DNA from: Agelas oroides
Taxonomy: Eukaryota > Porifera > Demospongiae > Agelasida > Agelasidae
Direction: 5' to 3'
Length of the DNA stretch: 64,000 bases
Assembly (NCBI GenBank): GCA_949130485.1
Contig: OX422190.1
Span: 5,680,861 to 5,744,860, forward strand
Shown here: positions 1,638 through 48,600 of the stretch, piece after piece
How positions within the stretch are numbered: the stretch's first letter is position 1
How the letters are laid out: each line of letters begins with the position of its first letter
Position numbers and translations under genes: made by a program
Notes under the pieces: model-generated
Databases searched by the model: none
Seen by the model: only the letters and a program-made list of their open reading frames with translations
What the model was told of the DNA's origin: nothing

Positions 1638-2246
1638 CAACAAATCACCCATCACTTCTCTTCTGGCTAACAAATATTTGTACTTAGTGGCTTTCCAATA
1701 CCTAGTCTGTGCATGGGGTTGTCTGCGCACAGGAGAACACAAAGATGGTCATTGCTCCACCAGAACAATTGAAGTAGAGCTACACCTAACGTTCTGCTCT
1801 TTTATTTGACCGAGACACTTGCCTTCCTGTGCACTCGTCAAGTTCAGAGTTTAATGAGATTGGAGTTCAGCCAAAAGCAGGGTGTGCTCACATGAATGTT
1901 GACACAGCGGAAGTAAATGGCTTCGACCCCAGAATGTTACCAGGCACTTTCCTCAACGAGAAGGAGTCTGGGTACCCGACTATCTTGCTCCATAGTTGAC
2001 ACTCTAGATCAGATTTGTGACCTGGAATAGTGAACTACAGGGGGTACCAAGTAATGGTGTTTCAAATTCTGCTTCCCTACGTTTGCAATAATTAACACTC
2101 AGGACCAGATTGCACCTTTTGACTACACTTGTACCCAGTCTCCATCTGTTGTGGGTATTCACTACTATTTTCATGCACATATTTTAGGAACGTTACATTT
2201 TTGTGTATTGTACTATAATGCCATGTCATATGCTTCATCTCCACAG

Positions 2247-4537
2247 CATCAATTCCTGAAGAAACCACCCCTCCCCCAGCAACCACTTCTCCCCAGACTG
2301 TTGGAACAACAACCCCTCTCCAGACTGTTGGAACAACCTCTCCTCCCCAGACTGTTGGAACAACCTCTCCTCCCCAGACCATTGAAACAACCACCCCTCC
2401 CCAGACTGTTGGAACAACCTCTCCTCCCCAGACTGTTGGAACAACCTCTCCTCCCCGGACCATTGAAACAACCACCCCTCCCCAGACTGTTGGAACAAGC
2501 TCTCCTCCCAAGACTGTTGGAACAACCTCTCCTCCCAAGACTGTTGGAACAACCTCTCCTCCCCAGACTGTTGGAACAACCTCTCCTCCCCAGACTGTTG
2601 AAACAACCTCTCCTCCCCAGACTGTTGAAACAACCTCTCCTCCCCAGACTGTTGGAACAACCTCTCCTCCCCAGACTGTTGGAACAACCTCTCCTCCCCA
2701 GACTGTTGGAACAACCTCACCTCCCCAGACTGTTGGAACAACCTCTCCTCCCCAGACTGTCGGAACAACCTCTCCTCCCCAGACTGTCGGAACAACCTCT
2801 CCTTCCCAGACTGTTGGAACAACCTCTCCTCCACAGACTGTTGGAACAACCTCTCATCCCCAGACTGTTGGAACAACCTCTCCTCCCCAGACTGTTGTAT
2901 TGGTAACTACTACAACTGGAACTGTCCCAGTCAGCAGCAGCACACAACCCACCAATAATCCCCCAAGTGATGGAGCAACTACCACATCAGTCATCATAGT
3001 AGTAGCTGTTGTGATCATACTTGTTGTCGTTGTAGTTGGAGTTGTCATTCTTGTGGTCCTCCTCATGGCCAAAAAGAGGAAGCAAAGGTTAGTAATCAAC
3101 AAGCTTCAGAGTGTCAAGACAGATCTTGAAATGAAATTGAAACTGGTAAGGACCACTGAGATGGAAACCAGTTCCAGTGCTAACCAGCCACCATATGCAG
3201 AAGTACAAACAAAGGCACCACCAAAAATACCTACTAAGTCAGAAGAACTCATAGAGTATTTGAATCTAATGAGCACTCTACCTGGTGGGTATAGTGAAAT
3301 TGAACTGGAACAAGCTGATAGTAAGCATGCAAAGCTCCCCAGACATGTTAATCTCTGTGATTCCACATCTGAACAAATGCAGTTGCGCACTGTGTATCAT
3401 GATATTGACCAACACTCCAGTACTACAAATGTACCAGAAGCTGACATCTATACTGTGCCCGACACCACCAGCTCACACACAGTTGAGACCCCAAGTGAAA
3501 ACTATGAGACGGTGTATAGTGAGCCAATCCAGCCTTCACTCTTCACAGAATCTAATGCAGTTAGAACTCCTGACTCTGAAGATTTGCAGCCTTACGGCCC
3601 CATATACACAATCCCCATCAACTTGCCAAAGAGTGAGAAAGTGCTACCAAAAGTCTCTGGTAGCAATATTCGAGAGATTTGTGAGCTTGGAATGGGGAAT
3701 TTTGGCAAGGTTATCCTAGCTGAGACAGTTGGTCTGAGTGCCAAAGATCTGACGTTGAGTGAATTAGATGATGACAAGAGTAAGTCAACACTAGTGGCCG
3801 TGAAGACACTCAAATCAGGTGCTCCAAGTACCATTAAAGAAGCTTTTGAGAAAGAGGTCAATTTCATGTCAAAATTGACTGATAGAAATGTCATTCGTAT
3901 ACTTGGAGTCTGCTATGAGGACAACCCTTTCATTATGATGGAGTACATGGAGAAAGGAGACCTCAACCAGTACCTTCAAAACTTCAAAATATTGAGCACA
4001 ACTGATTCAGAACCACAGGGTCAGATTACAACCAGCACCTTGGTTCATATGACCACACAGATTGCTAGCGCTATGAAGTATCTCACATCACACAACTTTG
4101 TCCACAGAGACCTGGCAACACGAAACTGCCTTGTGGGTCCAAACTACCTGGTGAAGATATCAGATTTTGGCATGAGTAGAAGTCTATACGACTCTCACTA
4201 CTACCGCATTCATGGGCGTTGTTTCCTTCCAGTTCGTTGGATGTCTTATGAATGCTTTTACGGTAAATTCTCCCAGAAGTCTGATGTATGGGCGTTTGGT
4301 GTTACCATGTGGGAAATCTTCACTCTTGCAAAGGAACAACCTTACATTGACATGTCAGACGAACAGCTCATTGAGGATGCACTCAAAGGTAAGAATCGCA
4401 CAATAATGGCAAGACCAGACCTGTGCCCACTTGAAGTGTATATAATCATGCTAAAGTGTTGGGTACACAACTCCAAGCAGCGAGCAACATTTGAGGAACT
4501 CTTTCACTTGCTCACTTCTGCTTACCAGGATGTTTAG
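2247..4537 (+). CDS. Receptor tyrosine kinase A (RTK-A), last exon: Thr/Pro stalk, membrane segment, juxtamembrane region, DDR-like kinase
   Basis: This would be the 3' exon of a receptor tyrosine kinase. It starts after a splice acceptor (...ctccacag, 2246) in phase 1 and runs open to TAG at 4535-4537. Order: a Thr/Pro stalk of about 23 copies of TVGTTSPPQ (to about 2899); one hydrophobic membrane segment (about 2986-3066) followed by AKKRK; a juxtamembrane region with tyrosine motifs ([28 protein letters not shown]); and a kinase with glycine loop GMGNFGKV, catalytic Lys at 3803-3805 (VAVK), HRDLATRN from 4103 and DFG from 4163. The stretch FLPVRWMS...[19 protein letters not shown] resembles discoidin-domain-receptor kinases. 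All key catalytic residues are present. Upstream exons (signal peptide, Ig domains) were not found in 1-2246. Paralogs are at 17908, 21546 and 24150. Confidence 0.88.
2280..2899 (+). repeat. 27-bp coding tandem repeat (TVGTTSPPQ stalk), about 23 copies
   Basis: Tandem 27-bp units read T-V-G-T-T-S-P-P-Q in the RTK-A frame, with a few variants ([18 protein letters not shown]). The opposite strand and other frames are also open and give spurious ORFs. The Thr/Ser/Pro composition suggests a rigid, O-glycosylated stalk. The paralogs carry only about 4 (RTK-B) and 6 (RTK-C) units, so copy number is evolving quickly. Confidence 0.9.
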
Positions 4538-14931: not shown

Positions 14932-16388
14932 TAGAGTAAGTTAGCAATCATCGGACGACAGGTATATTCGGACACTCAAACGCGGAGGGAAAACTGCGTA
15001 AACATTCGGCGATACCACAAGACTGTAGCTGAGGTACGTGGTACCTGGTATACCAAAAATGATGCCCGCGCATTGTTTCCTGTTGGCGCTAGAAGCGATA
15101 AAATGGCCGTCCGAAAAACATCAATATTCGGAAAAGTGTATGTATTTTCAGACACTGTTGTTTGTGCCTTCTCTGAAGCTGCTTTTGGAGAGATTTTAGC
15201 ATCGATACGATGCCCCAAGACCTCCCCAGTTCGCAATATATTTTGGTAGCGGTAGAGTAAGTTAGCAATCATCGGACGACAGGTATATTCGGACACTCAA
15301 ACGTGGAGGGAAAACTGCGTAAACATTCGGCGATACCACAAGACTGTAGCTGAGGTACGTGGTACCTGGTGTACCAAAAATGACGCCCGCGCATTGTTTC
15401 CTGTTGGCGCTAGAAGCGATAAAATGGCCGTCCGAAAAACATCAATATTCGGAAAAGTGTATGTATTTTCAGACACTGTTGTTTGTGCCTTCTCTGAAGC
15501 TGCTTTTGGAGAGATTTTAGCATCGATGCGATGCCCCAAGACCTCCCCAATTCGCAATATATTTTGGTAGCGGTAGCTGCTTTGAACACTCAGGGGCGCA
15601 GCTGAACATGGACCAGTCCGATTCGATCGATATCGGACGGTGAAATTTGTCATTTCTTGCTGTGTTGTCTCCAAACAAGTTGAAGTCTCCACCATATTAG
15701 CATCAGTAGAATCTACAGGCTCTTGGCTACATGCTGGTATTTGTCCGGTGTTTGTGCGTTGAGTAGTTCTCGAGATATTGCACGATATCGTTTGAACTCA
15801 CCTATTTATGCTGCACATAAATCAACCAGCGTAATTTATGGAAAGAAACATGAAATATATTTATATCTCGAGAACTACTCAACGCACAAACTCCGGACAA
15901 GTACCAGCATGTAGCCAAGAGCCTGTAGATTCTACTGATGCTAATATGGTGGAGACTTCAACTTGTTTGGAGACAACACAGCAAGAAATGACAAATTTCA
16001 CCGTCCGATATCGATCGAATCGGACTGGTCCATGTTCAGCTGCGCCCCTGAGTGTTCAAAGCAGCTACCGCTACCAAAATATATTGCGAATTGGGGAGGT
16101 CTTGGGGCATCGTATCGATGCTAAAATCTCTCCAAAAGCAGCTTCAGAGAAGGCACAAACAACAGTGTCTGAAAATACATACACTTTTCCGAATATTGAT
16201 GTTTTTCGGACGGCCATTTTATCGCTTCTAGCGCCAACAGGAAACAATGCGCGGGCGTCATTTTTGGTATACCAGGTACCACGTACCTCAGCTACAGTCT
16301 TGTGGTATCGCCGAATGTTTACGCAGTTTTCCCTCCGCGTTTGAGTGTCCGAATATACCTGTCGTCCGATGATTGCTAACTTACTCTA
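14932..16388. mobile_element. Giant foldback element with about 525-bp arms and partial arm duplication
   Basis: The arm at 15253-15778 is almost perfectly inverted at 15864-16388, with a loop of about 85 bp (15779-15863). The outer 320 bp of the left arm also occurs once more as a direct copy at 14932-15252. The outer ends are TAGAGTAAGTTAGC and GCTAACTTACTCTA, so a TA duplication is likely. Long ORFs in both arms mirror each other and have no recognisable domain. The near-identical arms suggest a young element. A transcript could form a hairpin of about 0.5 kb. Confidence 0.8.
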
Positions 16389-17252: not shown

Positions 17253-17907
17253 ACGTTTACAATAGCCGTGGCTACTATTTGAGGGGGCATTTATTTTGCT
17301 CGTAGCTTCCTATTGTGCAGCTACTATTCGAGCTTAGCATCTATTTGAAGAAATACGTTATGTGCACAACTTATGCTGGAGTTAGGAGGGCCGGTAGTGG
17401 ATTTATTTGTGAGTTTAGTGTGTTATACCAAAAGAATTCCTAGTGTCAGGTTTGGTGATTGGCCTACAAGTCACATAACAAGTACATTATCCTACTACCC
17501 ACAACTTCTTCTGCTATGTACTGTGGCCAGCATCCCCTTGTACCTTACTCAACTCACAGGTTCTTTTATCAAAGTTATCCTTCATGTTACGAATGGAATT
17601 AAAGGGGAATGCAGAGATGCCTGCAGAAAGTGAGGCCAGTGTCTCTTGTTTACCATGTGGGACATATTTAGCCAACTCTGGGCTAGAATCAACATTAAAA
17701 TATTATTGTAAAGAAACATTAAAATGAAAAGAGATGTGGGGATGGCATGCTAAAGAATAATACAAACAAGGAAGGGAGGATAGGTTAATATACAAAGCCT
17801 TATCCATCCGTACATCCTTTCACAATAGAGTAAAGATGAGTGATGGGGCTATGTATATATTGGTGTATTGTGCTATAATGCCATGTTATATGTTTTCGTC
17901 TCCACAG

Positions 17908-18737
17908 CATCAACTCTTGAAGAAACCAACTCTCCCCCAACAACCTCTTCTCCCCAGACTGTTGGAACAACCTCTCCTCCCCAGACTGTTGGAACAACCT
18001 TTCCTCCCCAGACTGTTGGAGCAACCTCTCCTCCCCAGACTGTCGGAACAATTACCAAAAATGGAACTGCCCCAGTCAGCAGCAACATACAACCTACCAA
18101 TAATCCCCCAAGTGATGGAGCAACTACCACATCAGTCATCATAGTAGTAGCTGTTGCGATCATACTTGTTCTTGTAGTTGGAATTGTCATTCTTGTGATC
18201 CTCCTTAGGGCCAAGAAGAGGAAGGAACAGCTAGTACTTAGCCAGCTTCAGAATGTAACAGTTGAAAAGGAAGATAGTGAATTGAAATTAAAGGAAGAAA
18301 CCACTGGGAAGGAGGACAGCAAGCAGCCACTGTATGCAGTAGTGCAGAAAAAGGTACCACCAAGTATACCATGTAGGTCAGAAGATGTCAAGTATTTGAA
18401 CCAAAACTGCACTCTGAGTGAGTACAAACTGGTACCAGCTGATTGTGAGTATGCTTTCCCTACAAAGTTCCCCACAGTTGTTAGCCTCTCAAATCCCATG
18501 TTTGAAGAAATGGAGTCCAACCCTATGTATCAGAGTATGGACCGACGCCATGATCCTCCCTGTACCACAAATGTGCTGCAAGGAAATGACGTCTACACTG
18601 TGCCAGATATCATCAGCTCACATACAGTTGAGACACAAAGTGGGATCCATGAGACAGTGTACAGCAAGCCAATCACAGATGCAGCTGGAAATCCCAGTGA
18701 TTCTGAACATTTGCAGCCTTATGCACCTATTCACTGA
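17908..18737 (+). CDS. RTK-B: kinase-less receptor paralog (stalk, membrane segment, juxtamembrane tail)
   Basis: A paralog of RTK-A with the same acceptor context (...tctccacag, 17907) and the same phase-1 start, ASTLEET. Four stalk repeats lead to [22 protein letters not shown], a hydrophobic membrane segment (about 18130-18210), RAKKRKEQ, and a tail with tyrosine motifs PLYAVV, KYLNQN, NPMYQSMD, VYTVPD, VYSKP and LQPYAPI. It then ends at TGA (18735-18737). RTK-A continues at this point into its kinase. Sequence just after the stop is a remnant of the kinase C-lobe tail, so an internal deletion of about 0.85 kb relative to RTK-A is inferred. The 276-codon frame is undamaged, so it may encode a kinase-less receptor, though a pseudogene cannot be excluded. 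Upstream exons were not found. Confidence 0.7.
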
Positions 18738-21545: not shown

Positions 21546-22476
21546 TCTCCATCAACCTGCCAAAGAGTAAGAAAGTGCTACTAAAAGTCTTTGGTAGCAA
21601 CATTTGAGAGATTCGTGAGCTTGGAATGGGGCATTTTGGCAAGGTTATTCTAGCTGAGACAGTTGGTCTGAGTGCAAAAGATCTGAGGTTGAAAGAATCA
21701 GATGATGACAAGAGCAAGTCAATGTTAGTAGCTGTGAAAGAGCTCAAACCCAGTGCCTAAGTACTACTAAAGAAGCTTTTGAGAAAGAGATCAATTTTAT
21801 GTCAAGATTGACTGACAAAAATGTCATTCGTATACTTGGAATCTGCTATATATGAGGACACCCCTTTCATTATGATGGAGTACATGGAGAATGGAGACCT
21901 CAACCAGTACCTTCAAAAGTTCAAAGCACTGGGCATGACTGATTCAGAACCACAAGGTCAGATTACAACCAGCACCTTGGTTCATATATCCACACAGATT
22001 GCTAGCGCTATGAAGTACCTTGCATCACACAACTTTGTACACAGAGACCTGGCAACACGAAACTGCCTGGTGGGCCCAAGCTACCTGGTGAAAATGTCAG
22101 ATTTTGGCATGAGTAGGAGTCTGTACGACTCTCACTACTACCGCATTCATGGACGTTTTGCCCTTCCAGTTTGTTGGATGGCATTTGAATGCTTTTACGG
22201 TGAAATTTCTCACAGAAGTCTGATGTGTGGGCATTTGGTGTTACCATGTGGGAAATTTTCACTCTTGCAAAGGAACAGCCGTACAGTGACATGTCAGACA
22301 AGCAGGTCATTGAGGATGCACTCAAAGGTAAGAATTGCACAATATTGGCTACACCAGACCTGTGCCCACTCGAAGTGTATAAAATCATGCTAAAATGCTG
22401 GAAACACAACTCCAAGCAGCGGGTAACATTTGAGGAACTTTTTCAGCTACTCACCTCTATTCACCAGGATATTTAG
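21546..22476 (+). pseudogene. Decayed DDR-like kinase domain, paralog of RTK-A
   Basis: Homology to RTK-A begins abruptly at the equivalent of about 3611 (ISINLPKSKK) and runs to the TAG at 22474-22476. It is broken by an in-frame stop (CGA to TGA, 21606-21608), a 1-base loss near 21757, a 4-base insertion near 21850 (ctatatatgag) and a 1-base insertion near 22208. Motifs survive in pieces: [37 protein letters not shown] and [13 protein letters not shown]. The conserved downstream C-lobe duplication follows at about 22583-22650. Its 5' edge corresponds to the point where RTK-B and RTK-C end. Confidence 0.85.
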
Positions 22477-26562: not shown

Positions 26563-26975
26563 GGTGAGTACTGGATTACGTGTACATATTAATCGCATTT
26601 TTACTTTTTTTTTTTCAATTTTCAAAAAAAAGACCCGGCCGGATCCGTGAAACATCAAATCAATTTGGTATGGCCTAAAGCTGTGGCGGGAATGGCCTGG
26701 GAACGAGGCTAGCTAGTCCAGGAGTGCGATTTTCGGTTTTGGGCGCACTTTATACGGAAATCCGTAAAACACCGCGTCACGCAACCCAACTATAACCCTT
26801 ATCGCATTAATTTTTTTTGACTCATCGAAGTCCGAGACCGCACTGAAAAAGTGCAAGAAGTCGACAATCTGAGACAACAAGCAACAGAGAACAAAGTACA
26901 AGTCGAAGTAAGTATGATTGGGGCAACCTTGAGTAGTTACTATGGTAGACATCTATTTAAAGGTAACGTTACTGT

Positions 26976-29900
26976 TTAACGCCTACAACTATTAATGTTG
27001 TCGGATAGACTATGTGGTTTTTTGGGCCTCTTCACAGGTAGAGGCAGGTTTTGTGTCCCAATCTTTCTTTTTTTAGGTCGTCCCTGTGGAGCCATTTTTG
27101 ATCCTCTCGGTAATCCAGCACGTCTTCTCTTGACTCCTCCTCCATTTGTCTTTATATATTGCCCCTTTCTGCCATGAGACCACACAAATCCTATAAAAAT
27201 AGATGTATGTATTAAATACAGCACTTTTTAAGCTGTTCTACTTATAACTGACTTACTATCAGGCCGTCCAAATTTGTGAAAGGCATAGGCAATTGTTGAA
27301 GTAGGTGCATGAGATGATTTTTGCATTTTTTTGTAGGCACTGATGAATTTACAGAGACCAGAGATGAAGTTGTGGTCTGCCTCCTTCACTCTCATTATTA
27401 TGTCATCTTCTATCTCCCTTAGGGAGGCATGGAAATTTTCTATCTGTTCTTCAAGTGGATCTGGCCCATCGCAGTCCAGGTTGTCTGATGTGAGCTCAAG
27501 ACTGGAACTGCGGTTTTCATGATCAGCACCACTTTCAGCATTTTGTATGATGAATTCAGATTTTTCTGTATTTCCTGCAAGTGGACTGCTGTTTGCATGA
27601 GTTGGACTTCGCAGGTCTGCATAGAAGTCTGCAGCCATAGACTTCCCCCCCATTGCCAGATCTGCGAACATCTTCCTTGCTTCTTTTGAGTAGTATGGTG
27701 CTAAGTTTACTGTACAAACATTAAATGCCTTTGCCACAGCTGCTTGGTGTTTGCAAGCGGCCCCGTTAAAACCTTTGGAACATGAGCACACTCCAATTTC
27801 CATGTCTACAATGTATTCAAGCTCACCAATTTTCTCTACATCCACTGTTACAAGGTATGTAGAATCTCGAAGTTTTTTTGTGCCTGTTATATCTTTCTGT
27901 AAATCATGGAGCTCTCTGTAACGCATAGCAATTCCAGGTCTGAATCTGCTGTGTGCCATGTCTAGTAGTCTACTCATAAAGTACTTTTCCATTGTGACAG
28001 TGACAAACTGAAACATCTGTATGAGGTTGTATGCTTTTATTCTTCCAAAAACTATTTCCTTAATGATTCTCATACCTGCCTCTGCATAGTTATTGGTATG
28101 ATTTCCCCTCATCATTTTGTCTACTCTGTAGGAGAGAGCCCACTCAGATCGACGCTCCCAAAACTGATCTAATCTTTGACAAAGGTTGGGATATTTTGTT
28201 GTATAACTGTCTGGGGTTTCTTCATGATAGCAAAATACTTTTGGTGAAAGTCTTGTTCATTTGGTGTGTATAGCATACTCTTTACCAATATCATGATTGA
28301 CTGGCGGTCTTCCTTAGCTATGCCATGCTTTGCATCCCACAACCATGACCACCAGCTCTGCAAATGATGAAAAATGCATAAAAGAAAGGTGGTACCTGGC
28401 CAGATATTTCCTAGAGCTGCCCTTTCAGCATCTGAATCATCTGTGATACATATTTCTGGCCCATTAAACCCTTTTCCATAAAAGGCATTTGTGGGTAAAA
28501 CATTTTTCAAGAATGTCATCGCTTCTGTAATGACCTCTTCACTCTCACCTGAAGTTATTACCACACCCAATGGAACACCTCCAGCTGATGTGCACGTGCT
28601 CATCACAAATGTGGGACAATTGTACCGGTCTAGACTTGAAGTTGAGTCACAGTATACTAGTTCCCCTGCTTGCCTCACTAATTTGTGAGCACGAGCCATC
28701 AGGGGAGTACATATCGCAAGCACAAGAGGCTGATCAGATGTTTTTTTCTCCCATGTAGCATTTTCAGATTGCTTTTCATACCTCTGTATGAATGCTCTTC
28801 CACCTGCTTCTCCATATTCATCGTTGTAGGTCCTTACAAGTTTTTCTAACTGTTCAAACATGTTTTCACCATTTTCTGGGCCATGTTTGTCCACTCTCCA
28901 TTTGTTATACAGATAGTAGATGTCTTTCGGGAGTGGGTTTATGGAACGGTCTGCATGTGCAATTTCAAACTCTTTTTCTCTGCCTTCATGTTCAATGGCT
29001 AAATTTATGTTGTGATGGTGGATAGCAGAGGAGGGAGAGTGACCTAGGTCAAAGTAGCTATAAAATTTCTGTTTGGTATCAGTACTAATTGGTCTAAAAC
29101 TGAGTGCATGTGCAGACTGAGTTGAGTGGTTGTGATCCCATGTAATCATTACTTCACATGGATGAGTGCTTGAATGCCAGACCTTTGGATTGTGCACCTT
29201 TATTGTAAAGTGAGCTGGGCAATCCGTCTTTTTATCTCTCTGTAGTGAATGGATCTTTTTTGGTTTATACTTAGAAGACTTTTTGCGTTTGTGCTGGCAA
29301 TGTCGGTCACTCTTATACAAAATCCTGAAGCCTTTTACACGATTTCCTCTTGTAACACGGTATGTTGTTGCAGTATATTCTTCAAGATCTTTGATCCATT
29401 TAGTTGCTCCTTCTTCTGACGTAATATTAATGAAAATGGTGGCAGAGAATGCCAGATCATTGGGGTTCTTTATGTAGTGTAACTTTTTGAATAAGTAGCT
29501 GTATCCTTTTGGGAGGACAGCTGCTAGTAGTGATGGTAGCTGGCTGCTATTATATTCAGTGTCCAGATCAATACAATCATGAAAAATGTCATGGTTGTGT
29601 ATAAGACTGTAGGAAGGTGGAGTGGGTAGTGGTGCTGTAGTAAAGTCATCATCAGAGAAATCAGATCCAGTTACAGTGCGTATAGGACTATACGAAGGTG
29701 GACTGGGTGATGGTACTGTAGTAAAGTCATCATCAGAGAAATCAGATCCAGTTACAGTGCGTATAGGACTATACGAAGGTGGACTGGGTGATGGTACTGT
29801 AGTAAAGTCATCATCAGAGAAATCAGATCCAGTTACAGTGCGTATAAGACTATACGAAGGTGGACTGGGTGATGGTACTGTAGTAAAGTCATCATCAGAG

Positions 29901-32900
29901 AAATCAGATCCAGTTACAGTGCGTATAGGACTATACGAAGGTGGACTGGGTGATGGTACTGTAGTAAAGTCATCATCAGAGAAATCAGATCCAGTTACAG
30001 TGCGTATAGGACTATACGAAGGTGGACTGGGTGATGGTACTGTAGTAAAATCATCATCAGAGAAATCAGATCCAGTTACAGTGCGTATAGGACTATACGA
30101 AGGTGGACTGGGTGATGGTACTGTAGTAAAGTCATCATCAGAGAATGTGGGTGTTAAATCAGACTCAGGTAAACTGCTATTTAGTGTGTCACGTTGCTGA
30201 GTTGTGGGGGAAGAGGATTGACAAATGGAAGAGTTAGCAGATGACTTAGGGAAATAACCAACAGGTTTCTGGGTAGCCAATGGCTTTGTGAAAGGATCAA
30301 CAGGTTTCTGAGTGGAATCAGTAGCCAATGGCTTAGAGGAATGACCGACAGGTTTCTGAGTAGGATAGGTAGCCAACGACTTTGCGGAAAGATCGACAGG
30401 TTTCTGAGTGGAATCAGTAGCCAATGACTTAGCCAATGACTTAGAGGTAGGAACAACAGGTTTCTGAGTAGTAATGTTAGGGCTAGCAGGTGGCTGATTG
30501 GGACAGGTTAGTGCTGGGTTAGCAAGTGGCTGATTGGGACAGGTTAGTGCTGGGTTAGCAAGTGGCTGATTGGGACAGGTTAGTGCTGGGTTAGCAGGTG
30601 GCTGATTGGGACAAGTTAGTGCTGGGTTAGCAGGTGGCTGATTGGGACAGGTTAGTGCTGGGTTAGCAGGTGGCTGAGTGGGACAGGTTAGTGCTGGGTT
30701 AGCAGGTGGCTGATTGGGACAGGTTAGTGCTGGGTTAGCAGGTGGCTGATTGGGACAGGTTAGTGCTGGGTTAGCAGGTGGCTGATTGGGACAAGTTAGT
30801 GCTGGGTTAGCAGGTGGCTGATTGGGACAAGTTAGTGCTGGGTTAGCAGGTGGCTGATTGGGACAGGTTAGTGCTGGGTTAGCAGGTGGCTGAGTGGGAC
30901 AGGTTAGTGCTGGGTTAGCAGGTGGCTGATTGGGACAGGTTAGTGCTGGGTTAGCAGGTAGCTGATTGGGACAGGTTAGTGCTGGGTTAGCAGGTGGCTG
31001 ATTGGGACAGGTTAGTGCTGGGTTAGCAGGTGGCTGATTGGGACAGGTTAGTGCTGGGTTAGCAGGTGGCTGATTGGGACAGGTTAGTGCTGGGTTAGCA
31101 GGTGGCTGATTGGGACAGGTTAGTGCTGGGTTAGCAGGTGGCTGATTGGGACAGGTTAGTGCTGGGTTAGCAGGTGGCTGATTGGGACAAGTTAGTGCTG
31201 GGTTAGCAGGTGGCTGAGTGGGACAGGTTAGTGCTGGGTTAGCAGGTGGCTGATTGGGACAGGTTAGTGCTGGGTTAGCAGGTGGCTGATTGGGACAGGT
31301 TAGTGCTGGGTTAGCAGGTGGCTGATTGGGACAGGTTAGTGCTGGGTTAGCAGGTGGCTGATTGGGACAAGTTAGTGCTGGGTTAGCAGGTGGCTGAGTG
31401 GGACAGGTTAGTGCTGGGTTAGCAGGTGGCTGATTGGGACAGGTTAGTGCTGGGTTAGCAGGTGGCTGAGTTGGAGGAGTGATGTGTGGCTGAGCATGTG
31501 CAATTTTTGGTAATGACATAATTTCGTCCTGGTGGAGGTGCCTGGCAATGGCAGGCTCAAGAAAGACTTGCTCGTTATAGAAGAGGGTGGCAGTACCTTT
31601 TGCTTGTTGGCTGAACAGAATTTCACGTTCGGTGTGAGACCTATTGGTATATATATATATATACTTGGTTAATTTTCATTTATAGGGTAGTACATTATGT
31701 TTGACTTACAGCAAGTGGCCATTCAGAACTTCTTCAAGCATAATTTTGCGCATTATTCCCATATCAGGCTAAATTGAAATGAGTAACATGTTGAATTGAT
31801 CACCACCTGCACAAGTGAGTCTGTTATAAACTGCATATACCTGTGTGAAATTCATGGGGTTCCCTCTCACCCTGTACAGTGCATACTGCGTAACGTATAA
31901 AAGACCATGCTATGTCATTAATGAATTAGTAGTCTAATAAAGTGTGTTTACCTGACACAAGAACACACCACAGTCCACTCCATTGGACTGCCTCGGGATA
32001 TCCTATTATTATACGTATGTACATGTATATAGCTGAATCAAAATCTATATTGAAAATCTATGAAGTTTATTTACAATGTACCTTTCTTGGTCTGTAGTGC
32101 CACTGCTTCCAGTCATTTAGTTTCTGTCCTAAGTGCCTTGCATGAGAATCTAGGAACAGACTATGAATGCAGTTGTGTTGTCATTTTAGTCTGTGCATAT
32201 GTGTACATGCAATATACAATTACTTACGTGGTAGTTTTACAGTATTGATGTTGGGGATCGTCATGAAGTAGGGAGTCATAGTACTCTATGCAATTTTCAT
32301 GCATGTCAACCACCTGGTTGAATAAAGCATGCAGAAATTCGGTGATTTGGGCACATGTTGTATGTTAAGTTGTAAATAAAAGGAACTAAGCAATCTCACC
32401 AGCATTGCCCAGTGGTTACCACCAACATTGATGAAAAATATTATATATTCCTGGTTGACAGTGTTTGTCTGTGGGGTGTGATTGACTGCATACGTTGCTA
32501 TTCAGCATTACAAATGAATGATTTCACTCTCACCTTCTGAAACCATGAGGCTACACCTTCGTAGCCTTGTTGCTGGAATTTTCGGAAGAACTGGGACCCC
32601 AAAACAAGGACTTGTTTGCCAGCCTAATATTTAATAATAAATGCATGTTTTGAATGTTACCATTTTATTATATTATGATTACCTCTGAAGCTTCTTGCTG
32701 AATTAGGTCCATGTATGTAGTAATGACCTAAAGGGTTTGTGTATTGAGGTTGTGATTATTTTATATCAATAACATGATCAGTTGTGTGTCAGGTACCTGG
32801 TCATCAAGCTGTGTTGGTCCTGAAAGCCGTCTACAGGCATGTAATGGTAGAACTATTGGCCTCTCTTCAATCAATAGATAAAAATTATATAATATTATGA

Positions 32901-34651
32901 TTTATAATCATGATTGTTATACTCACTCTCTTTTAACTCGTAGAAGAGCATGTATGGGTCTTGCTGAAGGACAGCAGCAATGCTCACTGGAATTATCTGA
33001 AATACGTACATTTAAACATAATGTTATACCATAGAGTTCCAATTGAGTACCAGCCCCTCTTTATATACCTTGGTGTCATTCAGATGGAACCACCGTGTAC
33101 TGTCTTTCAGTGAGCGACAAAAAGCAGAATAGTGTCCAGTGTTGCTGCATATCCTCGTGTACACAACAATCCCAGTCAGCTGGTAAATTCTCCTCTCATT
33201 TGGGATGCTCAGGGTTGATTTCTGTATAACATTATGAACAAACATGCAAACAAACATGTTTACATCTACTGTAAATTACGAGTTATTCCGTGTACCTGAA
33301 CTTGGACTTTAGTCAAGCCTCTCACTCTATAGTTTCATTAAAAAAAAATGTACATAACACAAAAACTTGTTATTGTGTAGCTAGTACATTGCTTACGTAT
33401 GGGGAGGTCTTCCCACATGAATGCATAGTACTTCAGGTAGTGAAGACAACTTCATTGTCTTTTCCTTGGTGACTATCTTACTGCACCTATAGTGTATTCC
33501 ATACAAGTACTAATAAACACTATTTTAGATTTTCTGTTGTAAACTGGATTACCGATCACACTCTGAAGTGACCTCTTCTTCTTCTAGCCATTCAAGCAAG
33601 AGATCTTGTACATGCACTGAACGTCTCTCCTGTAAATAGGTTAGAGAGTAAATGGTGATAAATACGTAGTGTCCAAGTAATGATACAAAGAAAGAAAGTT
33701 GTCTACTCACTCCGGCATACAATTGAAGATGTAAATCTTGTGTTCTTTGCTCAGATATTTCTCCACATTCCTTACATCTCACTGTAGAAGAGATGTGTGT
33801 TATATTAACTTTAATACATGAAATTATTTAACTACAAAATGATATACCTCTTTGTGTTGCTTCCACACAGAGCTGGCGTTGGATAGCTTTAGAGCATCTA
33901 ATCAAGAATCATTATGGCGCTTGCATTCACAATTCATAAACCATAAAGTATATATCAAGTCATTACATACTCTTACTTCACAATGCTCTTGCTCAGCAGA
34001 CTTGAAAACAGTGCTATGTAGAATTCATGAGCATCACACTGCTCGCCTCGATGAAGTAGTGGTGATATGTCTGCATGGTAAAAAAAGAAATCATCCCTAA
34101 TACAGTGATCACCACTCTGCTGTACAGGATGCATTGTTTTACCTTTCAATGCAGCCAGCATTGCAGTTGGTGAAATAGCATTGGTTGACACTGTAGAGTA
34201 TCGGTAGTCACTCCACAATGTACTAAATGCTGCAAGGCTGCATATTTGACCTAACAGTGTGACTAAGAATAAATATAGCATGCAGCAACAGCAGAGCTTG
34301 ATTCATAATTTTACCAGATATACAGCATTCCCTGTTGCAGTGACTGGGATGACTTGCAGTGAGCTGGTCAACAACAGATGTCATTTTTGGATGGTTAGAC
34401 AGGCACTGCATGATTGCACTTATGTAGCAATTGTTTGCCACGTTGGCAATCCCAGTAGGGTAGAGAATGTCTCCATTGTAGACTTCCACAAGTTTTCTAT
34501 TGCTTCTTGCAGGCGCCCTCACTGCAACGTTGGGTTTCTTCTTTGGCTGACCATTGTAGACTTCCCCTAACCTTCTACTGCCGTTTGCATGTCCTAGCGC
34601 TGCAGCATAGGACCGCTTCTGCGACCGAGACAATGACAAGCACTTCTTCAT
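26976..34651 (-). CDS. USP (C19) - Ulp1/SENP (C48) - MULE transposase polyprotein, 21 exons, one frameshift
   Basis: Exons (minus): 34651-34315, 34250-34143, 34070-33977, 33897-33848, 33781-33711, 33629-33553, 33486-33397, 33326-33296, 33221-33069, 32996-32927, 32864-32797, 32727-32683, 32623-32534, 32468-32400, 32313-32228, 32160-32082, 32002-31952, 31885-31841, 31768-31710, 31640-27257 and 27190-26976. All introns are GT-AG and every phase fits, giving about 2,090 residues. USP (about 65-357): Cys box GIANVANNCYISA (Cys codon 34429-34427), GEQCDAHEFY, a CKEC zinc pair, NTGHYSAFCR (His 33134-33132) and WFHLNDTK. Ulp1 (about 370-557): GGNHWAML (His 32414), YYDSL (Asp 32277), PRQ (Gln 31990), DCGVF (Cys 31972). 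Then two repeat blocks, a GCM/WRKY-like C-H/C-HxH zinc domain, the MULE DDE (first Asp 28648-28646), the SWIM motif CSCSKGFNGAACKH and the AT-hook GRPKKRK. A 1-base frameshift lies at about 28200-28220. The role of the proteases is unknown. Confidence 0.85.
29600..30150 (-). repeat. 81-bp coding tandem repeat, about 7 copies
   Basis: Units encode SDDDFTTVPSPSPPSYSPIR plus TVTGSDF; the last unit is degenerate. It is an acidic, Ser/Pro-rich linker upstream of the zinc domain. The plus-strand open frame here is a shadow. Confidence 0.95.
30480..31485 (-). repeat. 36-bp coding tandem repeat, about 27 copies
   Basis: Within exon 20 of the polyprotein, near-identical 36-bp units encode NQPPANPALTCP (variants TQPP, NQLP, NQPLA). 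The homogeneity of the units suggests recent expansion. The repeat probably forms a disordered linker between the Ulp1 domain and the transposase. Confidence 0.95.
31706..34651 (-). other. Double-protease module (USP plus Ulp1) of the polyprotein
   Basis: Exons 1-19 alone encode two cysteine-protease domains in tandem. USP enzymes cleave ubiquitin; Ulp1/SENP enzymes cleave SUMO or related modifiers. The C-terminal USP signature QQDPYMLFYEL (exon 10) and the C-terminal Ulp1 signature NFTQPDMGIMRKIMLEEVLN (exons 18-19) show that both domains are full length. If exon 19 is read through, TAA at 31708-31706 ends a protein of about 558 residues. If the overlapping GTAAGT donor (31709-31704) is spliced, translation continues in frame into the transposase. 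The gene could therefore make both a free protease and the fusion. Confidence 0.75.
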
Positions 34652-34800
34652 TTTGCAATTTCGCGGGAAAGTCGCAGACGCGTGTAGGGGTTAAAGTTGG
34701 AATGCATGACGCGGTGTTTTACGGATTTCCGTATAAACTGCGCCCAAAACCGAAATTCGCATAATTTTGTTTCTCCTCGTGAGGGGGTGGGGTCTAGCTC

Positions 34801-34840
34801 GTAGCCTCGTTCCCAGGCTCCCAGATTTGATTCCTAAGGC
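34801..34840. mobile_element. Single TAGCCTCG-family end
   Basis: 'tagcctcgttcccaggctcc' without a partner close by. An outward-facing partner-like end lies at 26690-26711 on the other side of the 8-kb transposon, so an older MITE copy could have been disrupted. This is uncertain. Confidence 0.4.
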
Positions 34841-39623: not shown

Positions 39624-42600
39624 CATACAGTACATACATACACAACCTCAGACTAAGACATTCCTGCATCCACACAATTATGTGCCTCACGGTGTTCGGT
39701 AACAGATACCAGACCTTTCACATGGGTACTTGTGGCTTGGAAGGTTTATTATTATAAGTTTTCTTCCTTTTTAACTTGTTGCAGATATTGTACCTTGTGG
39801 GAGTGGGTCTGCTCCTGACCTTTGACCTTCTAGCCTGTGTTGACTCCCAAGGTATGCTATACCATAACTCTTCCATATTTTAATGCCAAAGTGTAATAGT
39901 ACTTACCGTAAGCTCTCAAAAACACACCCCCTTTGAGCAAACACCCTCTCCCCCTTTAACCAATTATACACGAGATTAAATGGAATGCGTGATGTCAGTT
40001 TTTACAAAGCTTTTTCCAAGGATTAAAGTGTCAGGGAAGTCAAAGGAAGCTCTACAGAGTGAAATAAGGGACGGACAGCGTTTTTTTTTGAACCTAGGTA
40101 TGTTTTCTGAAGTTATATGTAACTGGTTTACGGAGGACGCTTACCTGCCGCATGTTGTGTGTACTGTCTTTGGGTTTGTTCGTTAACTAACAAGGCACAG
40201 CTCGAGATCTGTATGAAGCCCAAGAGTCGCTGTACCTGTGTAGTTAGTGCTGTGCCTCTGCTTATTGGTGTTGAGAAGAAAACGTGGCTAATGAGTTGTT
40301 TTCTCGATCGAGGAGATCGACAACCACCCGGGCTGTTATCGCTCACTATGCTCCACCCCTTGAGTGCTTCTGGACCAGCCCACATGTAATAGTGAGGAAG
40401 CCCCAAGCGTATTACAGACCGGATACAAAGCTTTTAGCTATTCGCCTTGGGCCGTGATAGTGCTTAGCAGTATCCATGACTCCAATTGGCATCTATTTTG
40501 TGACATATGTACGTATGACACCAATTGGTATCTACTGCGTATAATAGGTATTTTTCCCTTGTGTAAACACCCCATAGCGAGTGTCTTCTAGGTTTGGGCA
40601 TGCTTTTAGTGAGCTTTTGGTTTAGTTCCGTTGTCGAGTGTGTCGTAAACATGTACAGATCAAGTACCACCAAGGTTTCATTGCTCGCAATACATGCTTA
40701 CCGTACCTGGGGTCATCCACTGTCACCACTAGCAATGCAAGTTGCTTTGATGCCTATTAACTTAGTGTCAACACAATCGCTGCTGATTTCCCACAGTACA
40801 TGTTCAGCAAAGCTGGTGGCCGTTCTTCCTGAAAGCTGTGGCAGTCATCGTGATTGTTGACCTCACGCATAACATCACAAGGAACCGGGACATATGGACA
40901 AGACTAAATGAATATTCGAGCTAATGCCCTCTCCCCAATTTTGCCTCAAAGTAGTGTTCAAAAAAGGAGGGCATATTTTTGGGAGTTTATGCTAATTCTA
41001 GCTTCTGCTGACTTCTGTTAGTACACAGCTACTCTTACTTGCCTGTTCTTTACTTGGCAATAAAGTTGCCTTGAACATAGTGAAACACTGATTGAAAATG
41101 AAATCCCTTTTTGTGATGCTGGACAAGACAGCCCATGCTAGCTTGAAAATGTCGGAGCACCACTAGTAGTTAATTGTTATTTGCTTTGTGGGAGATACAG
41201 ATACTCTCTCCTGCAGCCACACACTTTACTCTCCACCAACAAGGAATGTCATCTATGTAATAACATGCACTAGATGTAAAGTCCAATATGCAGGAATGAC
41301 CACACAACCCTTACACAATAGATTCAGAAACCATTTGAGAGAAATGTTCACCAAAAGACCAGCTAACTGGGTACAAACTCGCCTGTATAGACATGTCCAA
41401 CAGAACCACCACATCCCCTCTGACATCCAAGTCCAGCCAGTTGAAAGCACAGAAGATCAAAGAAGTCTGAAGAAGAGAGAAAGTGCTTGGATCAAGGCCT
41501 TAAGAACAATAGAACCCTACGGACTAAATATCATCCCATAGCCTCCCTACACCTACTGCCATTGCTCCCGTTTTGTTGTCCTTCCAGGGTTCGTTCCCTG
41601 GAGTATACCTCCCTTTTTATTTTTTGTTTGTATTGGAAGTCCCTTTAGGCCTTTCACATGCTGTATCCCTTAGGCCTTACACAGTTTACGATAGCATGCT
41701 GTTGCCATGGCAAACACGCTATCACTAGATACACGCCGTTGCTAGTTATCATACACGCTGTTACTAAGCAAACCTATATTTAAGCGCTGTTTCATTTCAT
41801 TGTACTTACCCTTGAAAAAGCTCTCCATAGATGAGCGAAACGTCGGGCCTCTAATCAGAGCCCCCCCAGACGCAGGATGACAGCATCAGCAGCATACAAG
41901 AAACACCGAACAGCCAGTTTAGGCTGGCACTCTCGGTAACCCCGTGCATGCCCCGTATAAGTAGTATAGAATCTGTTAACCATAGCCCTTCCCCCCTACT
42001 GTTTAGCCCCACACCCACCGCAAGCCCAGTCCATGCCCCTACCCCAGATTCCACCCAGGACCAACCACCTCCCCCTCCACTTAGCCCCACTAACAGTCTA
42101 ACCTCTTCCCATAGCACTAGTCCCCAGCATGAAGAATCCCTATCTGGATCCATCGAACTATTCAGCCCCACCCCCAGCATAACCCAGAACAAGTGGCCAT
42201 CACCCCCACCTCTCCCTCAACGATCCCCACGCATTAGGAGAAGACACAATTTACACAACTATGCGAGCCTTGCCTCAACAAATGGGAGCTACGATGTGCG
42301 TAGCAGTGTTGGCGCTCCCCCACCCGATACCCCAACTTCTGACAATTCAGGTACAGTGCAAGAGCCTGTCAGCCTGACAAATGGGGAACCCGCAGCATCC
42401 ACCAATGGATCCACCGACACGCACACTAGTCCCCACACGCAAGACTCAGTAAGCCCCACCCCAAATTTGGAAAGCCTCAGACAAGCATTGTCCGCCCTTA
42501 GGCTCAAACAGGAACGAGTTAGACATCACACCAAGTTTCTAAGCATACAGGCCAACCAACACTCTTTTCCGAAAGGATTTAGGATAAAATTGCCAGTCCA

Positions 42601-45600
42601 AGTGCCAGACTTTGAAAACTCAAACCTACGGAAAGAAATCTTATCCCTCCAAACCGAAATCGGTAATAGGTTACGAGACTTGGTACTCGAGCATTATAAG
42701 AGCCTAGCCAATACAATTGAATCTAAGATAGAATCGACCAAAAAGAGCATGTTTAATAAGGCAGAAGCCTCAAGTCTTTCAATCAAAGACAAACAAAGGC
42801 TCACAAAGATCATTGAAAACAAAATAACTCCCATTGAAAACCGTGCTAACAAATTAAGAAATCAACTCAGGGAGAAAAGAGAGAAGAAAGCCTCAAGAAA
42901 TAATGTTCGGATACCAAACCCTCAATCCCCACGACACCCAAACGGCAAGTGTGGGAACAAGCCGGCTTTCCCACGAAAACAAGCCGCACACCACAGGATG
43001 AGACCATATCCTCCACCACAATACCACCACATCCCAACCCAACGACACGCACACACGTGCCACAAGAAAAGACCACACACCCCACCACCACAGTACCACC
43101 ATATCCCAACCCAATCACACATGCACACACAACCCCCCCCCCCCACCCCTCATGTCACTCAAACTACCCCCACCCCCCCTCATGGCACTCATTCTTCCAC
43201 CTCTACCTCCATTCCCACTAACCAAGCCCCCACCATTAATGTCTCTCAAGCTTCCCCCACTACAGGCACACCAACTAGCCCCCAAGCCAGCCCCCCTGAG
43301 CTACGCTCAAGTGACGAAGCTGAATATCCTTTGAAAAGTAACAGTAAAGAATGCCGTAGATTTAGAAGGTATAATCATAACAATCAACATAAACAAAAAC
43401 CAAATAGAGTACAAAACAATGACCACTGTGTAAATTTGTCCTCCTGTACCCTCACCAAAGAGGAGACTTCGATACTCAGCAAAGGTTTAGGTTTTGTCCC
43501 AACCCCACCCACACCACACCCATCTGCCATTCAGAAAGATATAAACAAATTTGCCCGTACCCTTAGGCTTAAATATGAGTTTCAGCAAAATAGGCCAAAG
43601 AAAAGGAAATTTAAACCCCAAAGCAATTACATACCCCCCCCCATCAACGAATAATTGCCTAGAAGACTATATATATGCCCTCAAGATAGAAGCTACCAAG
43701 TTGAAACCACATAGGACTAGAAACAATCTAAGCCAACGCCAACGAATAGCCCTCAGAAAACTTAGAAAAAGGAAAGACATTATCATCAAAAAGGCAGACA
43801 AAGGATCCACTGTTGTAATACAAGACAGACAGGAATACATTGAAACTGGTTTAGAGCATCTTTCAGATAGAGATACGTACAATGAGCTTCAGGAAGACCA
43901 GACTAAACAAGTAGCCGAAGAAGTAACCCAAGCTGTTAGATCCATGTACCAAGAAGGACACATAGATAAACCCACTGCTGAGTACCTCCTACCTCCACGA
44001 ATGGTGAGGACACAGGAAATGTACTTCCTAAAAAAGATACATAAAAACCCACCCTCAGCTAGGCCCATAGTCTCAGGTTGTGATGGTCCAACTGAAAAGA
44101 TTTCAGCTTACTTGGACCACTGGCTTCAGCCCCTAGCGAAATCACTCCCCTCCTACATAAAAGACACAAATGAATTTGTTAAATACATAGAATCCACTAA
44201 ATTACCCAAGGACTGCATTCTTTGTACCCTGGATGTTTCCTCATTGTACACCAACATCCCGACGGAAGATGGCATTCACGCTGCGCTTCAAGCCATTGAA
44301 AACTGGGATAACAAGGACCCTCTGTGCCCTCCAACCAGTTGGCTAAAAAAGCTTTTAGAACTCATTCTTTACAAAAATGTTTTCAGATTTAACGATAATT
44401 TTTACATTCAGAAACAAGGCACAGCCATGGGTACAAAGATGGCACCTGCCTATGCTAACATTTTCATGGGTGCACTGGAATCCAGAATCCTTTCTGAAAC
44501 AAACCCCTCCCCCATACATTGGAAGAGATACATAGATGATATATTTTTAGTGTGGACTGACACGAAAGAAAGCCTGGAACAGTTCATCAAAAGCATCAAC
44601 AACCTACACCCGCGCATTAATTTTACTGCCGAGTTTTCAACAGACGAAATCACGTTCTTAGACCTATGCTTATACAAAGGGGAGAGATTTACCAAGGAAG
44701 GGATCCTGGATATCAAAACCCATATCAAGCCCACCAATACCCAACAGTATGTACGTGCCTCATCTGCCCACCCCCCTGGAACAGGCCGGGGTATCATCAA
44801 AGGAGAACTACTTAGATACCTCCGAACGAACTCAAACGAAGCTACATTCCAAACGCACAGAGAGAAGCATGTCGAAAATATGAAAAACAGAGGATATAGG
44901 CGAGAGACCATAGACGAGAGCATTAGAGGGATTAAATTCCCTGACAGACTAAAAACGCTAGCAAGCAAACCACACACTGGAAATGAACGCCTAACTTTCA
45001 CTACTACATATTCACTGCATTTACCAACACACCGCCTCAGAAGATTGCTTGTTAAACACTGGCACCTCATCGAGAAATCCCCGCTACTTTCTAGACTTTT
45101 CCCAAATAGACCCACGGTAGCCTTTAGAACCCATAAGAGCATCAGAAAACAGCTTACCCGAGCAAGACTAGAGGACTCAAAGATCGTATATAAAATTGAC
45201 CGAGACCTCACTCTCCTTTGTGAACCCCTGCCTGCCCTGAATGCACCCCCACTAATCAAAAGATGCAGTAATAACTGCTTGACATGCAGAGCCCTCGATA
45301 CCAAACCTTATATTAAGAGCACCTCCAAAGGTACATACCACAACCTCAAGATTACAAACACCATCAGCTGTAAAACAAGGAATGTCATCTATGTAATAAC
45401 ATGCACTAGATGTAAAGTCCAATATGCAGGAATGACCACACAACCCTTACACAATAGATTCAGAAACCATTTGAGAGAAATGTTCACCAAAAGACCAGCT
45501 AACTGGGTACAAACTCGCCTGTATAGACATGTCCAACAGAACCACCACATCCCCTCTGACATCCAAGTCCAGCCAGTTGAAAGCACAGAAGATCAAAGAA

Positions 45601-48600
45601 GTCTGAAGAAGAGAGAAAGTGCTTGGATCAAGGCCTTAAGAACAATAGAACCCTACGGACTAAATATCATCCCATAGCCTCCCTACACCTACTGCCATTG
45701 CTCCCGTTTTGTTGTCCTTCCAGGGTTCGTTCCCTGGAGTATACCTCCCTTTTTATTTTTTGTTTGTATTGGAAGTCCCTTTAGGCCTTTCACATGCTGT
45801 ATCCCTTAGGCCTTACACAGTTTACGATAGCATGCTGTTGCCATGGCAAACACGCTATCACTAGATACACGCCGTTGCTAGTTATCATACACGCTGTTAC
45901 TAAGCAAACCTATATTTAAGCGCTGTTTCATTTCATTGTACTTACCCTTGAAAAAGCTCTCCATAGATGAGCGAAACGTCGGGCCTCTAAGCAGAGAATA
46001 AAGTTTTGCCAATCCCCTCCTACTGTCCTCATCAATAAGCCTATACCGCAGCGCCGCAGTATGACGTCATTTTTGAAACTACTGCACTATACAACCCGTC
46101 TGAGATACGCACTTCGATCCAGAGAGATCTATACCGAGGAACCAATTACGTCCCCGGAGATACTATCAGAGCCCCCCCAGACGCAGGATGACAGCATCAG
46201 CAGCATACAAGAAACACCGAACAGCCAGTTTAGGCTGGCACTCTCGGTAACCCCGTGCATGCCCCGTATAAGTAGTATAGAATCTGTTAACCATAGCCCT
46301 TCCCCCCTACTGTTTAGCCCCACACCCACCGCAAGCCCAGTCCATGCCCCTACCCCAGATTCCACCCAGGACCAACCACCTCCCCCTCCACTTAGCCCCA
46401 CTAACAGTCTAACCTCTTCCCATAGCACTAGTCCCCAGCATGAAGAATCCCTATCTGGATCCATCGAACTATTCAGCCCCACCCCCAGCATAACCCAGAA
46501 CAAGTGGCCATCACCCCCACCTCTCCCTCAACGATCCCCACGCATTAGGAGAAGACACAATTTACACAACTATGCGAGCCTTGCCTCAACAAATGGGAGC
46601 TACGATGTGCGTAGCAGTGTTGGCGCTCCCCCACCCGATATCCCAACCCCACACACTTTGTAATGCATGCATGTACAGCACTAATAAGCCAGACAGCTAG
46701 AAACACTGTACAGTTCATAGTTTCCGTACCAACCCCTTCAAAATGTGAATGGTAAAAACGTAGTTTAAGAGTACATGGTTTATCAGAACTTGTTTACTAC
46801 CCATGGGAGCCAGTCAAAGTGCACCTTGCCACTTCAGACTGCTCCTATACACATGCAGAGGTTGAAATTACATGTGGTGATCGGTCAAATTCCGCGTGTT
46901 TTACTTACCATTACAGACCATAAATGTGGCAGTCCCGGGTAGAAATTGAACATTATTCCGTTGCGTAATTCGACCGCGTTACCGCATTCGAAGTGCTGCA
47001 GCGCAAAACTTCCATTAAGGGCGGGGCTCATACATGTGGCAGCGAAGATGCATGAATACCTGATAAGTCTATGTAGCGCGTATGAGCCCCGCCCTTAATG
47101 GAGTTTTGCGCTACAGCGCTTTGAACGCAGTAATGCGATCGAAATACACTACGGAATAATGTTCGATTCTACCCAGGACTGCCACAAATATAAGTGGTCG
47201 GTAGGCATGACTGACTGTTCCTAATCTCGCAAGCCCCACCCAACTTAGCCTCGTTCCCAGGCCTTCCCCGGCTCCAGTTTTTGATCGCTTGCAGTATGCA
47301 AAAACGGAGGGAGAAGGCCTGGTGAATCTTACCACGTGATCTGCGGCACACATGACGTCACAGGTTCTAGACACGAAGACATATTCACATTTATATCTCC
47401 AGCTACAGAGAAGCTAGAGAAACAAGACAAGTTTTAGCCGAAAGACAAGTCTTACCTCTAGAACATACCAGAGTCTGAAGCAGAACCGCTGAAGGACGGT
47501 TCCGCTACAAGCGTTGCAAATCCAAAAGCGGCTGCTTTTTCGCTACGTTAGCTAAATTTTGTCACTGCAGATATTTCACGCATGTCATTCGGCAACCCTT
47601 CGGAGCTATTCCTTCTAGCTCAGATATGTTTTTTACGCTTGATGTTGTTCTCCGTCAGCGCTTGTCTCGTCTTCGTAGCTAGTACAGAACGCAAGATCGG
47701 TCTTCTCCCAGCATGGCTATACATATAAGAGCGTGACAACTGTGACGCCTGTGCCGCGGATCACGTGGTAAGATTCACCAGGCCTTCTCCCTCCGTTTTT
47801 GCATACTGCAAGCGATCAAAAACTGGAGCTGGGGAAGGCCTGGGAACGAGGCTAACCCAACTGGCACGGATCGCTTCCAGTAAAGACAAGACGAGGCGGA
47901 CAGTACCAAGAAACTACACCTCAAATACGATACCTTTCGTAAGTGACAGTGCGAGCTCGGTCGCGCACTCAGTATGTCGTTTCATGCCTCGTTTTCATGA
48001 ATGCTGCTCAGCGTGGCATGCAAAGTCGAGTAGCTACTGGCTTTTCCACCGGCTTTGAGTAGCTACAGGCGTCTCTTCTGTACAGGCACTACCTTGTATG
48101 CGTTTGTTATCTCAATCTTGGCCAGCATGGAGCCCACATCTGATTGCCGAATTCCTTGCACTACGTCATCCACCTTTGTGTATGACATTGAGGAGAGCTC
48201 TGTTGAGATACCATCATTGACACTCATTCCTGGGATGTATGATGAGTCTACAATTAGCTGAAACTTTCCTCGCTGGTTTCAATAACGCCAAATCTGCTTA
48301 TGTGTACTGGGTACTGGATTTCATCTGGTGCAAAAGGTCCAAACATGCGCCCCTCCCTTAGCTCACTATCAATGAACTGTTGAACTATGACAGGATGGGC
48401 CTTCACTGATGGCATGTTTGCCTTGGCACACAGTCTTGGTCTGGACCAGTCATACCCAATTCTGAACTCATTCTCGAGTCCTGTTATTGGGGCGAGCGTG
48501 AGCGAGCCCCACACTAGTGTGTTCTATTGTAATTTTTCATGTATTTTCTGTCGTACGTCGTACGTCATTCCGTATCTTCTTGACGGTGTGATTTAATGCG

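Follow-up and report, generated by a model that had tools for sequence, protein, structure and literature searches.

Why would a DNA transposon carry a ubiquitin-specific protease (USP) and a Ulp1-type protease in the same protein as its transposase? The question is raised by a 64,000-nt stretch of the genome of the sponge Agelas oroides (contig OX422190.1, positions 5,680,861 to 5,744,860 of the forward strand; the window, hereafter), in which positions 26725-34761 hold an element of the Mutator superfamily with a single minus-strand gene between terminal inverted repeats (TIRs). In one spliced frame this gene encodes, in order, the USP, the Ulp1, linkers of tandem repeats and a transposase of the Mutator-like element (MULE) type, with the catalytic residues present. 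Judged by its sequence, the element is a Mutator-superfamily DNA transposon of autonomous type whose transposase is now frameshifted. The TIR arms are 77 nt long and 91% complementary (self-BLAST E 2e-24), in agreement with the initial annotation, which had placed inverted ends about 8.0 kb apart around one gene on the minus strand. Other copies put the true terminus at GCGA, one base inside 26725/34761. The parts of the element are given below in the direction of the gene.

34685..34761, minus strand: terminal inverted repeat on the 5' side of the gene (inverted-repeat match; own-genome copies)
32927..34651, minus strand: exons 1-10, N-terminal tail and USP domain (C19), with Cys 75, His 316, Asn334-Asp335 and two Cys pairs
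31640..32864, minus strand: exons 11-19 to the first base of exon 20, Ulp1/SENP-like domain (C48), with His 447, Asp 464, Gln 511 and Cys 517
30480..31474, minus strand: linker, 12-residue repeat (36 nt), 27.6 copies
30273..30432, minus strand: linker, 16-residue repeat (48 nt), 3.3 copies
29599..30145, minus strand: linker, 27-residue repeat (81 nt), 6.8 copies
28222..29593, minus strand: transposase portion before the frameshift; both catalytic Asp boxes lie here, at 28651-28637 and 28447-28433 (Pfam and alignment; fold match of a relative, P0001)
29120..29308, minus strand: Cys/His region before the catalytic core (conservation; without a Pfam match)
27257..28220, minus strand: rest of the transposase, beyond the frameshift; Glu box at 28094-28074, SWIM-type CxC...CxH at 27854-27726
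26976..27190, minus strand: exon 21, basic tail with an AT-hook-like GRPKKRK (27083-27063; motif read by eye)
26725..26801, plus strand: terminal inverted repeat on the 3' side of the gene (inverted-repeat match; 38 matches in the own genome)

Between the TIRs we read 21 exons on the minus strand. Nineteen introns measure 59-86 nt, all 19 with GT-AG borders, and keeping 17 of them in the transcript would disrupt the frame (through an in-frame stop in 15, through their length in two); the twentieth and last lies at 27256-27191. The count of 21 exons agrees with the initial annotation. The likely acceptor of exon 2, 21 nt upstream of the start in our own first gene model, was pointed out by an apparently spliced relative, P0029, which joins exons 1, 2 and 3 in agreement with the gene model; P0032 shares that exon 1 but reads on into an intron. 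The source of P0029 is labelled 'lgn', which we take to mean assembled sequencing reads, and this entry looks like a spliced transcript of a sister element.

Pfam scans of the first 607 residues of the spliced protein matched UCH at E 2e-35 over profile positions 1-254 of 254, a complete domain, and Peptidase_C48 at E 3.5e-26 over positions 2-206 of 217. The Cys, QDAHEF-type, GHY and ND boxes of a USP are all present, as is the H-D-Q-C catalytic set of Ulp1 when aligned to SENP2. The closest solved structures were USP36 for the USP part and SENP2/SENP1 for the Ulp1 part, and the Ulp1 domain, complete like the USP domain, is SENP1/2-like. The two domains are a predicted deubiquitinase and a predicted SUMO protease, respectively. 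When the USP-Ulp1 part was searched as one whole protein, only two USPs matched, we would guess because the exons are short.

USP and SENP enzymes act on ubiquitin-like folds, cutting after their Gly-Gly. A polyprotein that cuts itself, releasing USP, Ulp1 and transposase separately, would suit the long repeats that separate the parts, but no ubiquitin-like fold was found in Pfam scans of the protease and transposase parts (the repeat linker lying outside the scan), and we regard such autoproteolysis as very improbable. Different tandem repeats fill the linker before the transposase in the relatives P0007, P0019 and P0022 and in two loci described below, E59 and E62, as if the linker were kept while its repeat sequence turns over.

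The C-terminal part of the protein matched the Pfam MULE profile at E 2.9e-6 (28.0 bits against a cut-off of 27.6). The initial annotation had expected four Pfam families in this protein, and UCH, Peptidase_C48 and MULE were recovered; SWIM fell under its cut-off (E 0.0075), the CxC being invariant and the next C and H nearly invariant among relatives. The IS256 profile of NCBIfam matched three of three relatives, under its own cut-off. An AlphaFold model of P0001 (mean predicted local distance difference test score, pLDDT, 73) had three ISCth4 transposase chains as its sole matches at E<0.001; a model of P0021 (mean pLDDT 54) was poor and was not used. Within the Cys/His region at 29120..29308, C99 and H154-N-H156 are invariant and C125 nearly so, and we infer that this may be a zinc-binding DNA-binding domain. 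A database search with the transposase returned 22 relatives, and a profile search with the transposase alignment in viral contigs and genome contigs returned no relative. The MULE reading of the initial annotation holds for the domain; its open frame does not, a one-base frameshift near 28222 having been missed.

The left TIR has 38 matches in the sponge's own genome (38 of 38 candidates scored). We examined 15 pairings of ends for target-site duplications (TSDs), the window included, some pairings being alternatives for the same ends. Perfect 9-bp duplications stand directly at the ends in six of the 15 (L040, L041a, L042, L046, L047 and L048), and in L039 the 9-bp duplication is offset by 1-2 nt; none was found in the other eight. 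Duplications of 9 bp fit the Mutator superfamily, and the multicopy elements with shared ends foreseen at the outset are present. At E 0.001, 15 of the 20 fetched TIR loci match the USP part (L053 with 24 residues only) and L044 matches Ulp1 only, while L049, L050, L055 and L057 match neither part. The protease exons are multicopy, and not the single-copy genes lacking transposase and ends that the initial annotation had considered as the contrary outcome. Could a host USP-SENP gene simply lie beside a MULE, or have been hit by one? Such a chance neighbourhood is refuted by the multicopy elements and keeps practically no credence. The missing TSD at the window copy would suit it, whereas the start codon lies 34 nt past the TIR inner end in the window element, and this TIR stands ahead of USP exon 1 in other assemblies as well as in copies from the sponge's own genome that have 9-bp duplications.

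A single 9-mer with one mismatch in the window flanks was judged to be within chance and is not claimed as a TSD. The sequence GCCTGGGAACGAGGCTA, present on both sides, was rejected as an outer element end; it is a common repeat (16 window matches), and other copies terminate at GCGA. This 17-mer occurs at 16 places in the window, for example at 26695-26711 and 34802-34818, and the window element and the own-genome copies L039, L045 and L048 sit in or beside the repeat, a possible insertion preference of the element.

Leaving the window aside, 11 elements have paired ends, and ten of these measure 3.4-4.4 kb. Such short copies run from the USP exons through half of Ulp1, its first (to window position 32099), and continue with the end of the gene (27358 onwards), and the transposase core is absent. 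Exon indels, largely shared, occur in 13 of 13 aligned copies and break their frames, which ruled out a reading of these copies as coders of a USP without a transposase; by their sequence they form a decayed non-autonomous subfamily. The locus E61 keeps the transposase part at 91% DNA identity to the window, with no proteases found upstream of it. The window holds the only copy found with both halves, proteases and transposase, of its subfamily.

Such copies invite the suggestion that the protease exons are captured host sequence, carried as passengers with no function in transposition. Plant MULEs do capture host sequence (PMC13317346, PMC2528002), and the short copies were amplified with their protease exons decayed. 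Against this stand the intact 607-residue frame of the window gene, its catalytic residues and its 19 good introns, together with a bias in codon positions. When the window is compared with five decayed copies, divergence is higher at third codon positions than at the first two (p<0.05 in four of the five; p 0.0506 in L039), and introns too have diverged more than the first two positions in all five; these five were chosen from 13 compared, among which L040, L043, L046 and L056 show weaker contrasts, and the decayed copies share history and are not independent.

Conservation in other assemblies bears on the same point. A search with USP exon 1 returned 18 database proteins, one of them the window's own. 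The Cys box is kept with CY in nine of the other 17 and with CH in one more, and relatives in which it is kept stand at 53-57% identity, which counts against mere passengers. Two of these proteins, P0033 and P0041, read through the same TIR in translation, exon 1 of P0041 being decayed. The peptide that follows Ulp1 in exon 20 was tested in the four relatives in which it had been noticed (P0003, P0004, P0005 and P0019), and 0 of 500 shuffles reached its score in each.

Does the arrangement recur within the sponge genome itself? We crossed 119 MULE hits (from the best 150 of 194 candidates scored) with 127 UCH hits and 133 C48 hits in the own genome (G000). Seven of the 119 MULE hits have a same-strand UCH hit no more than 6 kb upstream (shifted-position null: mean 0.073, maximum 2 in 1000), and none of the 119 has one within 6 kb downstream or on the other strand. 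The seven comprise the window, one MULE outside a short copy and five new loci; a sixth new locus, on C17, has 10 kb between UCH and MULE. Six of six new loci have a C48 hit that falls strictly between the UCH and the MULE and shares their strand (shifted null 0.013, maximum 1 in 2000). These six loci, on C2, C3, C4 (twice), C17 and C19, are divergent from the window, and their MULEs were not among the matches listed by the window transposase search (best 67 of 173 candidates scored). The two C4 loci are equally spaced and may be one duplicated element. The first USP exon on C17 matches the window's at E 3e-11 and is alike by eye outside the catalytic box too. With the same order found at six further loci, the passenger explanation appears improbable to us.

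Two side observations belong here. The USP at L067 (C17:4448700-4450700) is divergent, with exons laid out like those of the transposon USP; a MULE follows 10 kb downstream, and a C48 hit lies between the two. At three places in G000 a C48 hit lies downstream of a MULE hit on the same strand (C10:4875302/C10:4877309, C1:2103184/C1:2101157 and C1:23129431/C1:23128022); these pairs are perhaps MULEs with a C-terminal Ulp1.

The history of the fusion can be approached through two sister elements, E59 and E62, which are near-identical and are counted as one family. E59 has TIRs of 64-65 nt, a span of 5.8 kb and a 9-bp duplication with one mismatch; E62 has TIRs of 59-60 nt and a span of 6.0 kb, with no TSD found. 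Both carry the Ulp1 Cys exon and the transposase, with only about 1.1-1.2 kb between the element end and the Cys exon. The Ulp1 score was 57 in E59, where the null peaked at 41, and 52 in E62, where the null peaked at 47 and a low-complexity piece scored equally high; USP scores fell below the null mean in both. In the tree, E59/E62 are sister to the window's clade (joint branch support 99/98). The combination of Ulp1 and MULE therefore seems to be the older one, and the USP would have been gained on the branch of the window or else lost from E59/E62. The initial annotation had held that copies without proteases would speak against its reading, and such copies exist in part: E59/E62 are without a USP, E61 is transposase only and the short copies have decayed proteases. 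A further locus, E60, shows a perfect 9-bp duplication; its Ulp1-like reading, made by eye, was not confirmed by Pfam. The H-D-Q-C readings by eye in E60, P0013 and P0021 were set aside, Pfam giving no support in any of them and, for P0021, a PDB search giving none either.

What, then, might the two proteases do? The fusion, the catalytic residues and the mobility of the family can be read from the DNA itself. Animal transposon silencing runs partly through SUMO. We favour, with more confidence than doubt, the local removal of ubiquitin and SUMO at transposon DNA by the transposase-fused proteases. The transposase and basic parts would bind the element ends and tether both isopeptidases to transposon DNA, where they could strip ubiquitin and SUMO from host silencing or repair proteins and also from the transposase itself. 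Removal of these marks would keep the element expressed and the protein stable, and the long flexible repeats may let the proteases reach around bound DNA. Ulp1 would be the older partner, and the USP a later addition or a part lost in sister lineages.

We hold local removal to be most likely because self-stabilisation alone hardly accounts for two different isopeptidases on one DNA-binding transposase, and because plant MULEs of the Ulp1-bearing KIU type (KIU-carrying Vandals) have been linked to silencing escape, in a review that calls the function of the Ulp1 domain unknown (PMC13317346). Alternatively, the proteases may act mainly on their own protein, clearing degradation or SUMO marks or tuning the amount of transposase without countering silencing. 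The proteases stand in cis on the transposase polypeptide, and repeat linkers precede the transposase in some relatives too, both of which fit this view; alone, however, it gives no reason for needing both the ubiquitin and the SUMO pathway, and we consider it rather unlikely. In the broader form of local removal, an old animal MULE lineage would carry, fused to its transposase, a deubiquitinase and a deSUMOylase that serve together for targeted erasure of the host's silencing marks, and would do so in two or more divergent groups within one genome, a proposal that we advance tentatively and with doubts that slightly outweigh our belief.

Several observations weigh against local removal and its recurrence. 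Enzyme activity, tethering to transposon DNA and targets are predictions. The short copies have spread despite decayed protease exons, so a copy served in trans needs no proteases of its own, and the sister family E59/E62 suggests that the USP is not needed there. The frameshift near 28222 falls between the second Asp box and the Glu box, at a site that relatives such as P0001 read straight through, and no TSD was found in the flanks of the window copy; these two features make it probable that the copy is dead or mis-sequenced, its gene being well kept otherwise. Between the window and E61 transposases no clear codon-position contrast was seen. The fold overlap of P0001 with ISCth4 is partial, with template-modelling scores of 0.20-0.25 by query and 0.37-0.46 by target. 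At the six further loci the C48 matches are individually weak (E 0.07-0.17, under the cut-off), and that search left the Ulp1 of the window itself unlisted; the USP-Ulp1-MULE order there is read from the positions of domain matches. Lastly, when the last helix of Ulp1 was tested in six other relatives, 9, 137, 166, 204, 290 and 434 of 500 shuffles reached the score, chance-like in five of the six and weak in one (P0015).

If local removal is true, the element offers a DNA-targeted, ready-made test of whether transposons fight silencing by erasing SUMO and ubiquitin marks, and would itself be a naturally tethered ubiquitin and SUMO editor. The USP-bearing and USP-lacking sister elements in one genome are a case of stepwise domain gain or loss.

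The remainder of the window holds other features of its own. The region 43545-45677 encodes a reverse transcriptase (RVT_1 5e-12) whose end resembles GIY-YIG, at a score just under the cut-off, and we read it as a Penelope-like element; its upstream part is repeated at 41855-43654 and 45971-46663, and by eye part of the upstream open reading frame (ORF) recurs downstream. Two 526-nt arms at 15253-16388, 99% complementary and 84 nt apart, each have a long open frame. A tyrosine kinase ORF at 2219-4537 (PF07714 8e-80) has a long TTSPPQTVG repeat, a second kinase ORF lies at 21812-22393 (3.8e-35), and an ORF at 17844-18737 has a repeat and tail similar, by eye, to those of the first. Ig-domain ORFs are present in the window alongside the tyrosine kinase ORFs, and both point to an animal genome.

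How new is the combination? In the open-licence literature searched, with Repbase outside its scope, no joint USP, Ulp1 and MULE protein was found. The novelty is nevertheless narrower than claimed at the outset. Components of the combination had been printed already, namely Ulp1-bearing animal MULEs, a C19-transposase protein and the functional idea, a role of such enzymes in transposition having been suggested (PMC2836005). Closest to the window element are the Mutator transposons of hydra, lancelet and plants that encode Ulp1 (PMC2836005), which share with it a Mutator-type transposase and Ulp1, animals included, a form that E59/E62 also have; the passage describing them makes no mention of a USP. 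Kaonashi and KIU MULEs likewise join a MULE and a Ulp1-type protease. They are described as plant elements that lack TIRs and whose Ulp1 is either reversed in orientation or part of a VANC-type gene (PMC13317346, PMC2528002), whereas the window element has long TIRs and its Ulp1 is in frame, in the same direction and before the transposase, and it falls outside the Kaonashi type. Ginger1 transposons, with OTU or Ulp1 at the C end, resemble it in fusing a transposase to a cysteine protease of the ubiquitin- or SUMO-removing type, and differ in having a Gypsy-integrase-like transposase and one protease at the C end (PMC2836005). Finally, the Trichomonas protein XP_001314237.1 joins Peptidase C19 to transposase_11, and so shares with the window element a C19 protease joined to a DNA transposase; it is a protist protein with another transposase domain, and Ulp1 is not mentioned in its description there (PMC2836005).

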